Assembly (NCBI RefSeq): GCF_013343005.1 | Contig: NZ_CP054491.1 | Coordinates: forward strand, 3,268,501-3,332,500 | Length of the DNA: 64,000 bases | Reading direction: 5' to 3' | From: Candidatus Reidiella endopervernicosa | GTDB lineage: Bacteria > Pseudomonadota > Gammaproteobacteria > GCF-013343005 | Shown: positions 30,335 through 37,443 of the stretch, one piece after another | Layout of the letters: each line of letters starts with the position of its first letter | Position numbering within the stretch: the first letter of the stretch is position 1 | Notes under the pieces: model-generated | Database searches by the model: none | Told to the model about the DNA's origin: nothing | What the model saw: the letters and a program-made list of their open reading frames with translations, nothing else | Program-made: the position numbers and the translations under genes

Positions 30335-30739
30335 ATGATGAAATTCACTAAAGCAGCTGCTCTCGCAGCACTCGTCGGTGTTAGCGCACTCTCTATGTCT
30401 TCTGCCAGCGCCTGGTGGACCCCTTGGAACAACAACGGTTGGGGCAACAACAGCCCATGGAACAACGGTTGGGGTAACAACGGTTGGAACAACAACAACG
30501 GTTGGGGCAACGGTAACGGTTGGGGCAACGGCATGGGCGACATGATGGGCGATTTCGACCTGAGCTTCCGCGGTCGTGGTAACGGTAACGCTTCTGGCAA
30601 CGGTTATAACGGCTACAACGGTTTCAACAACGGTTACAACGGCTACAACGGTTATGCTCCTTACGGCGCTCCTTACGGCTACGCTCCTTACGGCGCACCC
30701 GTAGCACCAGTTGCTCCAGTAGCACCTGCTGCACAGTAA
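30335..30739 (+). CDS. Sulfur globule protein (SgpA/CV1-like)
   Basis: A 134-residue exported low-complexity protein. A signal peptide (about 1-26, ending SSASA) is followed by a WxxW start, a Gly/Asn/Trp-rich region with repeated GWGN units, a short GMGDMMGDFDLSFRG centre, then repeated YNG units, APYGAPYGYAPYGAP and a PVAPVAP end. This composition and order match the envelope proteins of sulfur globules in purple and colourless sulfur bacteria (SgpA/SgpB of Allochromatium), which coat stored S0 in the periplasm. ATG 30335 follows AGAGGA; a strong terminator comes 20 bp after the stop. Single gene with a strong promoter candidate upstream, as expected for a very abundant protein. Confidence 0.85.
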   Translation: MMKFTKAAALAALVGVSALSMSSASAWWTPWNNNGWGNNSPWNNGWGNNGWNNNNGWGNGNGWGNGMGDMMGDFDLSFRGRGNGNASGNGYNGYNGFNNGYNGYNGYAPYGAPYGYAPYGAPVAPVAPVAPAAQ

Positions 30740-35578: not shown

Positions 35579-36508
35579 ATGAACGACTACAAAAAGAACT
35601 ACAGCCGCCGCGTACTGATTCGTTTGGTGATAATGACGCTACTGGCGCTAGGCATCGTGGCGATCAACCTCGACCTGCTCACCGGCGTCTACTTCCGTAA
35701 CCAGCTCACCCAGACCGGCATCATCATCAATAGCAGCATCCTGGTGCTGTTCCTGCTCGGCCTTTCCAAGGTGATCTGGATTCTGCTGCGCTATATGCGC
35801 GAAGAGTCAGCACTCTCACGTTTCATCTTCAAGCTCGAACAGGATCAACTCGGCAAGCCGGAGAAGGGCGAGAGCACCAATCTGATCAACGACCGCTACC
35901 GCACCATTCTAAATCTCGACCGGCAGAACGCGCCGATCAACCACAGCGCGTTGGCCGCCGTGTTACTGGCACAGGAGAGCACCCGCATCAGCTTTCCCAA
36001 GTTCATCCACAACATCCTGATCCTGACCGGCGTCTTCGGCACCATCATCTCGCTCTCCATTGCACTGATCGGTGCCTCCGACATGCTCGGTTCACCGCAG
36101 GAGATCGGTAACATGGGGCTGATCATCCATGGCATGTCGACCGCCCTCTCGACCACTATCACCGCCATCCTCTGCTATCTCTTCTACGGCTACTTCTACC
36201 TCAAGCTCACCGACACCCAGACCCACCTGGTCGGTGGTATCGAGCAGGTCACCACCCTCTACCTGCTGCCACGCTTTAGCCACAGCAGCGACACCCTGCT
36301 GCACGACATTGCCGGGCTAGTTAAGAGCCTGCGCACCACTGCCACCATCATGCATACGGCACAGGAGAGCTACAGCGAGGCGGGTAGCCAGTTGCAACAG
36401 ATGTTCACCAGCATGAACGACCAGACCGGTTCTATCAGTAGCGACATGAAAGAGATCAAACAGCTGTTGCAGGAAGGTTTCCGCCTACCCGCACGAGATG
36501 ACGCGTAA
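35579..36508 (+). CDS. MotA/TolQ/ExbB-like proton channel protein of an uncharacterised motor pair
   Basis: A 309-residue membrane protein with four predicted segments (about 10-30, 45-68, 143-165 and 178-205). The third reads ILILTGVFGTIISLSIALIG and the fourth MSTALSTTITAILCYLFYGY, the two segments that line the ion path in ExbB/TolQ/MotA proteins. A cytoplasmic stretch of about 70 residues separates TM2 and TM3, and the C-terminus is a helical cytoplasmic tail. Stop and start overlap with the next gene (TAATG), so the pair is translationally coupled. It is not the housekeeping tolQ, because tolR/tolA/tolB/pal are absent. Confidence 0.72.
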   Translation: MNDYKKNYSRRVLIRLVIMTLLALGIVAINLDLLTGVYFRNQLTQTGIIINSSILVLFLLGLSKVIWILLRYMREESALSRFIFKLEQDQLGKPEKGESTNLINDRYRTILNLDRQNAPINHSALAAVLLAQESTRISFPKFIHNILILTGVFGTIISLSIALIGASDMLGSPQEIGNMGLIIHGMSTALSTTITAILCYLFYGYFYLKLTDTQTHLVGGIEQVTTLYLLPRFSHSSDTLLHDIAGLVKSLRTTATIMHTAQESYSEAGSQLQQMFTSMNDQTGSISSDMKEIKQLLQEGFRLPARDDA

Positions 36509-37443
36509 TGGATCAGGGTTTCGTCGATCTTCGGCAGGCTCATAATGACAACAACAGCGTCAGTGAGAACTACTGGCCCTCGCTGACCGACATCATGACC
36601 GTGGTGGTGATGATCTTCATGCTCGCCAGCACGGTGCTGATCGTACGCAACTGGGAGCTGATGGCGGAGCTGCGCAATACCATGGAGGCCGAACAGCGAG
36701 CGGCATCGATGGCGCGTAATGTTGCCGACGCCAACGCCACCCTTGAGGAGCAGCTTGCCTCCGCCCAGCACCAGCTCTCACTGCTGCGCATGCAGATGAT
36801 GCAGGCACAGGAGACCGACGCTGAGAAGAGCCGACAGCTCGCCGAACGCGAAGCACAGCAGCTGGCACTCGAATCTCAGCTTGAACAACTTCGTAACCAG
36901 CTCAACCAGACCGAGCAACAGCGCTCACTGCTGAGCGATCAGTTGCAGCAGGCCAACAGCCGCTACACCGAACTCAAGGCCGAACACGAAACGCAGCTGG
37001 CTCAGCTGAGCAACGCCGAAGAGAAGATCACCGCTCTGGAGCTGAATAACCAAAAGCAGGCCGATGCATTGATCGACCTCAAGCAGCAGCAGCTCTCCTC
37101 AACACGTAGCTTTACTTCACTACAGGGTGAGTATGACGACCTGAAAGTGAAGTACGACAAGCTGGTTCGTCCCGCACGTACGCCGGTTGGCAAACATGTG
37201 GTCGAGGTCCGCTTCGAGAAGATCTCCGGCAACAAGCGCATCGCCATTCGCGAAGGAGAGGCGGAGTACCGCCAGCTCACCATGGAGCAGCTCAACAATG
37301 AGCTCGGTGCTCTCAAGCAGGCGCATCCGGGCATGCTCTATGTGAAGATCGTGATCCCTGACGAGAGCGGCCTCTCTTATAATGAGGCGTGGAACTTTAC
37401 CAAACAGATCCTGCAGGAATACGACTACTACCATCAGGAGTAA
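36508..37443 (+). CDS. ExbD/MotB-like partner with a long periplasmic coiled coil
   Basis: A 311-residue protein. After a short cytoplasmic start, NYWPSLTDIMTVVVMIFMLA (about 22-41) is a single membrane segment with the aspartate (Asp29) in the place of the proton-carrying Asp of ExbD/TolR/MotB. A coiled coil of about 180 residues follows, very rich in Gln/Glu/Leu/Ala. The end (about 228-311: VEVRFEKISGNKRIAIREGE, then VKIVIPDESGLSYNEAW) resembles the ExbD/TolR periplasmic domain rather than an OmpA peptidoglycan-binding domain. Normal ExbD is about 140 residues, so the coiled coil is a large insertion that may reach across the periplasm. Confidence 0.72.
   Translation: MDQGFVDLRQAHNDNNSVSENYWPSLTDIMTVVVMIFMLASTVLIVRNWELMAELRNTMEAEQRAASMARNVADANATLEEQLASAQHQLSLLRMQMMQAQETDAEKSRQLAEREAQQLALESQLEQLRNQLNQTEQQRSLLSDQLQQANSRYTELKAEHETQLAQLSNAEEKITALELNNQKQADALIDLKQQQLSSTRSFTSLQGEYDDLKVKYDKLVRPARTPVGKHVVEVRFEKISGNKRIAIREGEAEYRQLTMEQLNNELGALKQAHPGMLYVKIVIPDESGLSYNEAWNFTKQILQEYDYYHQE

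Follow-up and report, generated by a model that had tools for sequence, protein, structure and literature searches.

Two overlapping genes, here called A and B, lie on the forward strand of the window (the whole stretch of 64,000 nucleotides that was analysed), at the positions given to them in the original prediction. The first encodes a channel subunit and the second a subunit with a single membrane span, a long coiled coil (the shaft) and a terminal head. ORF analysis of the window shows the stop codon of A and the start codon of B overlapping as TAATG, the junction already described for the pair. The features of the locus are as follows:

35579-36508, + strand: gene A, channel subunit of the MotA/TolQ/ExbB/ZorA type, 309 aa (open reading frame; profile and fold matches)
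35615-35788, + strand: membrane helices 1 and 2 of A, about residues 13-33 and 48-70 (hydropathy peaks at 15-30 and 51-65; model helices 8-29 and 45-87)
36017-36196, + strand: membrane helices 3 and 4 of A, about residues 147-206 (invariant columns; alignment to TolQ, ExbB and PomA)
36041-36043, + strand: codon of Thr155 of A (invariant)
36155-36157, + strand: codon of Thr193 of A (invariant)
36287-36481, + strand: cytoplasmic tail helix of A, residues 237-301, with the conserved GFRLP motif at its end (model helix; conserved columns)
36508-37443, + strand: gene B, 311 aa, subunit with one membrane span, a coiled-coil shaft and a TolR-like head (open reading frame)
36580-36648, + strand: membrane helix of B, about residues 25-47 (invariant residues; ZorB matches in the PDB; weak PF02472 match at residues 25-43)
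36589-36591, + strand: codon of Asp28 of B (invariant)
36652-37164, + strand: coiled-coil shaft of B, residues 49-219, 171 aa, about 25 nm (model helix; period 3.50; heptad-stepped lengths)
37171-37431, + strand: head of B, residues 222-308, TolR/ExbD fold, beginning at the RPAR motif (VIA structural matches; conserved motif)

The source genome, which contains the window, is complete (3.45 Mb) and carries the A-B pair as a single copy, in addition to TolQRA, one ExbBD pair and PomAB, the genes of which are all sited elsewhere. The pair is flanked by an NnrS gene on its 5' side and, on its 3' side, by a sensor gene whose product combines a four-helix input with a PAS domain, so that Ton, Tol, flagellar or anti-phage partners are absent from its immediate surroundings, as had been predicted. 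Neither the NnrS nor the PAS sensor gene was seen to recur beside the pair in the other loci of our survey (109 distinct loci). Elsewhere in the window (30335-30739, + strand) lies the gene of a secreted-looking repeat protein rich in Trp, Asn, Gly and Tyr (WWTPWNNNGWGNN...NGYNGYNG), the composition of which recalls sulfur globule proteins; the source genome has dsrA.

The channel subunit

Family-averaged hydropathy places four membrane segments in A, near residues 15-30, 51-65, 147-165 and about 190-202 (the last one weak), and the same layout is found in the predicted structure (mean pLDDT 80). The layout of A is therefore that of MotA and ZorA, not the three-segment type of TolQ and ExbB. 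Apart from this refinement, the proposed MotA/TolQ/ExbB character of the protein is borne out both by structure and by profile. Foldseek matched the model to ExbB and TolQ with a probability of 1.00 and to ZorA and PomA with 0.95-0.99, MotA/PomA being among the returns, while VIA gave a Z of 13.8 against TolQ and ExbB (rmsd 3.5 over 199-207 residues). The Pfam family PF01618 matches A itself with 19.5 bits, which is below its cut-off of 22.9 (E 8.7e-4), and matches all 51 aligned members of the A family at E<0.1. Nearest by sequence profile is ZorA (PADLOC ZorA2/ZorA1), with weak matches in 36 of the 51 members and a best value of 1.5e-6.

T155 and T193 are invariant in the family alignment. 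The Thr of the GVFGT motif of A aligns with that of GLFGT, GLLGT and GMIGT in TolQ, ExbB and PomA of the source genome, and the Thr of ALSTT with that of ALIAT, ALITT and ALLTT in the same three proteins. Near-invariance extends to G300, F301, R302 and L303 at the end of the cytoplasmic tail.

The single-span subunit

The single membrane segment with an Asp that had been noticed in B contains D28 (in WPSLTDIMTVVVMIFM), which, like W23, P24, T27 and M30, is invariant among 50 sequences; the short cytoplasmic start of the protein carries a conserved F-x-DLR motif. A PDB search found the nearest solved relatives of the membrane stretch in ZorB (8vvn, 8vvi), and ZorB profiles match residues 10-86 of B only. 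AlphaFold2 predicts a single helix from residue 27 to 219 (pLDDT of the shaft mostly >90), followed by a b-b-b-a-b-a head at 230-305, with a mean pLDDT of 84. The coil, previously estimated at some 180 residues, comprises about 171 after the membrane helix. Matches of SMC, myosin, taxilin and JetC to this part were rejected as matches of composition.

The end of B had been called ExbD-like, a description which the structural comparison narrows to a TolR fold: the best VIA matches of the head are TolR 5by4 (Z 8.6), TolR 2jwk (Z 8.3) and then ExbD 8p9r (Z 6.9), all above unrelated rows. HIV integrase and ribosomal proteins, which also matched, were rejected as of low probability or as common arrangements with lower Z. 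The head is marked by a conserved motif, LYxKIIIPxxSGLSYxEAWxF...KYDYYYQ. A Pfam search of B gave no match above cut-off to PF02472 (ExbD) or to OmpA, in agreement with the predicted absence of an OmpA domain, and the head lies outside all curated Pfam families.

Distribution and neighbourhood

Of 369 gammaproteobacterial genomes sampled, 54, belonging to 26 families, contain full-length A homologues (32-56% identity), and such homologues also occur in further families of a phylum-wide sample; a search at the level of the order reached the source genome only. A scripted count over 136 A loci found B adjoining in 119, the remainder being mostly contig ends or start-codon problems, and by sequence comparison the conservation of the pair is well above chance. 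Searches of phage and plasmid collections gave no match to the pair. Two relatives (L005, L013) come from MAGs named Desulfuromonadales, in a family whose other members here are gammaproteobacterial; they could be due to mis-binning or to transfer. TolA is present in all 38 pair-bearing genomes tested. The gene dsrA is found in 40 of the 54 pair genomes vs 78 of the 315 others, a comparison from which ancestry has not been removed; a sulfur-specific role was rejected, because dsrA, albeit enriched, is absent in 14 pair genomes and because of this same reservation about ancestry.

Several loci depart from the common arrangement. One sub-lineage (L135:213-959, L136:2479-3216) has kept A together with a B that has the membrane helix and no TolR-like head, and in L137 and L138 A is followed directly by a nicotinate-nucleotide adenylyltransferase-like gene, without B. 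There is also a sister motor pair (L094:5941-7802, L096:5069-6867, L097:5075-6963, L098:5066-6891, L099:5024-6807), in which the A-like protein has 331-369 aa (PF01618 is above cut-off in L096) and the B-like protein 256-277 aa (SFSDVALLMLATFIFL) with a much shorter coil.

The survey of neighbourhoods that had been suggested for the pair revealed, beside the wide adjacency of A and B, no third gene recurring broadly in the 109 distinct loci, with the exception of an MlaC-family gene in some lineages (treated below). Other neighbours are restricted to single groups, such as rmuC directly upstream of A in one family (L105, L150), or an mnmE-like gene upstream of the pair in one lineage (L053-L056), where an mnmG-like gene also lies directly downstream in L054 and L056.

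Length of the coiled coil

In a first measurement the membrane-to-head distances of 80 loci fell almost all into one class modulo 7. With a stricter anchor, from the Asp to the Pro of RPAR in 109 distinct B proteins, 96 distances are 5 mod 7 and 11 are 2 mod 7, the latter class being shifted by exactly 4, i.e. by one stutter (4 = 11 mod 7); the remaining proteins are that of L131, shifted by 1, and one that is unreadable owing to a run of N. Length changes were inferred by parsimony on a single tree (FastTree, from A and the ends of B), and of the 45 changes 33 are multiples of 7 (6.4 expected), 11 equal 4 mod 7, one is +1, and none falls into classes 2, 3, 5 or 6. The binomial probability of at least 33 whole-heptad changes among 45, vs an expectation of 1/7, is 6e-19, a figure to be taken as indicative since the changes were inferred on one tree. 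The hydrophobic pattern tells the same story: its period in the shaft is 3.50, and the register is the same whether counting starts at the membrane or at the head. Among the proteins shifted by 4, the register on the side of the head is displaced as one stutter predicts.

As a general baseline for length change in heptad steps was not found in the literature on coil evolution, two internal controls were made. The distance from helix 4 of A to GFRLP, where it varies, takes values across six classes modulo 7 and shows no lock, and in RmuC, a single-span coiled-coil protein of the same genomes, the membrane-to-domain distance occurs in all seven classes (24 sequences, with a looser membrane anchor). 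Taken together, this is strong evidence that B is one uninterrupted parallel coiled coil, the angular register of which is continuous between the motor helices and the head. Whole-heptad steps denote an uninterrupted coil and are by themselves no proof of torque or force. The lock fits a stiff shaft, and its phase may have been kept by selection for torque transfer rather than for mere stability of the coil.

Among intact proteins (first anchor) the shaft measures at least 157 residues (about 23 nm), with a median of 188, and is close in length to domain II of TolA, for which PMC12204202 gives 110-335 with a median of 192. Some relatives possess shafts of 43-104 nm, too long for a straight crossing of a periplasm of ordinary width. 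When shaft and TolA ORF of one and the same genome were compared, their lengths proved unrelated (Spearman 0.07, n=35), and the idea that the shaft is a ruler of periplasm width was rejected on these grounds.

Relation to known systems

None of the searches with PF01618, PF02472, OmpA, NCBIfam and PADLOC profiles assigned the pair to one of the characterised families of Tol, Exb, Mot or Zorya proteins, and the refuting test named in the original prediction did not go against its reading; Zorya profiles match weakly. At the level of the superfamily (MotA/TolQ/ExbB with MotB/TolR/ExbD, forming 5:2 complexes) the fold of A and the membrane Asp and Thr are both present.

Nearest by sequence to A and to the membrane helix of B is ZorAB (PDB 8vvn, 8vvi, 8qyd), which likewise has a four-helix channel subunit. 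The pair differs in having neither the long A tail nor an OmpA-like peptidoglycan domain (the ZorB profile match ends at residue 86 of B), and instead bears a TolR-fold head on a long coil; ZorC, ZorD and ZorE genes are absent from the immediate neighbours at the source locus. With TolQR and ExbBD the pair shares the core fold of A, the membrane Asp of B and the fold of the head, whereas A has four segments rather than three, B has an extra coil of at least 157 residues, and no TolA, TolB, Pal or TonB gene recurs beside the pair in the 109 loci. The MotAB/PomAB stators have in common with it a four-helix A and the Thr and Asp of the ion path; by contrast, B is devoid of an OmpA-type peptidoglycan-binding domain and the pair has no known flagellar link.

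Two further systems resemble the pair in their reach. GldLM and PorLM of type 9 secretion are ion-driven 5:2 motors in which the long periplasmic part of the dimer acts on outer-membrane-associated proteins (PMC8986121), a likeness which, for A-B, presupposes the inferred 5:2 stoichiometry. GldM, however, has a large periplasmic domain where B has a coil and a TolR head. Pfam and NCBIfam matches, listed as far as E 10, include neither GldL nor GldM for the pair, and no GldK or GldN genes adjoin it. For TolQ-like proteins with transpore-helix vWA partners, PMC12204202 contains the proposal that the dimeric partner needs neither TolA nor TonB and itself applies the force of the motor at the outer membrane; here the similarity lies in this direct force and the difference in the vWA domains, which stand in place of coil and TolR-fold head. 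The A-B pair appears to work like a 5:2 motor, yet it lacks defining features of Tol/Exb, Mot and Zorya. No description of it was found in the portions of the literature covered by our search, which included passages of PMC9389320, PMC12505986 and PMC12204202.

Proposed mechanism

The fold of each part, the conserved motor residues, the adjacency of the genes, the coil register and the heptad-locked length were all computed, and the fold of A, the ion-path Thr residues, the Asp of B and the TolR-fold head were counted in favour of a 5:2 motor; folds and motor residues thus support the motor pair originally envisaged. Counted in favour of a shaft in B were the heptad lock with its two unlocked controls, the agreement of register between both ends, and a length close to that of TolA domain II. 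Our main reading, to which we assign a probability of roughly 0.55, is that A and B form an ion-driven 5:2 motor in which the B dimer is axle and periplasm-spanning transducer in one. By homology with the known motors, five A subunits would surround a pair of membrane helices, one from each of two B subunits, and the drive would come from ions, most likely protons, which on their way past Asp28 in B and the ring of Thr155 and Thr193 in A would make A5 and B2 turn against each other. Beyond the membrane the helices of the B dimer would continue as a parallel coiled coil without breaks, about 25 nm long, cross the periplasm and place the TolR-like dimer head near the peptidoglycan or the outer membrane. 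In this manner B may unite the axle role of ExbD/TolR with the spanning role of TonB/TolA, and the motion of the motor would be passed directly to the outer envelope. We infer the stoichiometry, the ion, the rotation, the direction of force and the contacts of the head. The most plausible class of load is upkeep of the outer membrane, and the absence of a broadly recurring third gene fits a self-contained transducer.

A more specific version must be regarded as tentative, and we would sooner doubt it than adopt it: a stiff drive shaft carries rotation or force to the outer membrane within one protein, with selection preserving its torsional phase so that length changes only by heptads or stutters, and is coupled in some lineages to an MlaC-type lipid carrier of its own. 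Counted against the main reading were the shafts of 43-104 nm, the lacking relation to TolA length, the loss of the head in L135 and L136, and the conserved GFRLP end of A, which hints at a cytoplasmic task that the main reading leaves unexplained.

Alternative explanations

This last motif is central to the alternative that survives best, an envelope sensor in which the peptidoglycan or the outer membrane anchors the head and the shaft acts as a stiff tether; by rotating or gating, A would send a signal inward via its tail, as proposed for ZorAB. ZorA and ZorB are the nearest sequence relatives of A and B, rotation of ZorA relative to ZorB has been proposed to change the cytoplasmic part of ZorA (PMC11890865), and heads of the TolR/ExbD fold can bind peptidoglycan (PMC10771500). 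The tail of A, however, has only about 65 residues, far below that of ZorA, no recurring gene for a cytoplasmic effector lies beside the pair, and a pure tether has no obvious need of a phase-locked coil, so that we consider a sensor unlikely.

The MlaC genes raise the question of lipid traffic. In 18 distinct loci (e.g. L016:7115-7768, L011:7175-7891) a gene confirmed as MlaC by Pfam immediately precedes A on the same strand, and in L002 (10670-11362) and L022 (4752-5366) one lies downstream of B; these genes form a divergent subfamily, apart from the usual mla genes. The motor could accordingly serve a dedicated periplasmic phospholipid carrier of the MlaC type that moves lipids between the membranes, with the usual MlaC of the genome taking over where none adjoins. 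Co-occurrence speaks for such a link, as the subfamily is present in 18 of 54 pair-bearing genomes vs 11 of 315 others (P 7e-10) and the association holds inside dsrA-bearing genomes (P 1e-4); but the adjacency is confined to few lineages and shared ancestry has not been removed. Moreover, 36 of the 54 pair genomes, the source genome among them, are without the subfamily at the score used, the sole MlaC of the source genome adjoins a STAS (MlaB-like) gene, and seven pair-bearing genomes have no MlaC match at all. A lipid-traffic machine is in our view quite improbable, and MlaC is best treated as a functional lead, not as a defining partner of the pair.

Still less probable is a spare, ordinary ExbBD/TolQR pair that serves the TonB or TolA of the cell and merely has a longer linker. 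The TolR-fold head and the ExbB/TolQ-like core are what one would expect of it, but the four membrane segments of A are not, TolQRA and ExbBD are already present in the genome, a head some 25 nm away could hardly act beside the membrane helices of TonB or TolA, and a linker needs no heptad-locked length. A divergent Zorya-like anti-phage system, suggested by the weak ZorA matches and by that of ZorB over the membrane helix of B, is hardly credible given the lack of adjoining ZorC, ZorD or ZorE, the missing OmpA domain, the short A tail, the varied non-defence surroundings in 26 families and the lack of matches in phage and plasmid collections.

Implications

In the known 5:2 motors of the Ton or Tol kind, the outer membrane is reached via a separate protein, TonB or TolA. 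In the A-B pair, read as an ion-driven motor with axle and transducer in one, the motor dimer itself is the apparent transducer. Members of the family are common among gammaproteobacteria, their hosts including many sulfur oxidisers and symbionts of animals, and in the profile libraries used the family falls below the level of named families. Its natural shafts, which come in many lengths and in heptad steps, may make the transmission of rotation by such motors testable.
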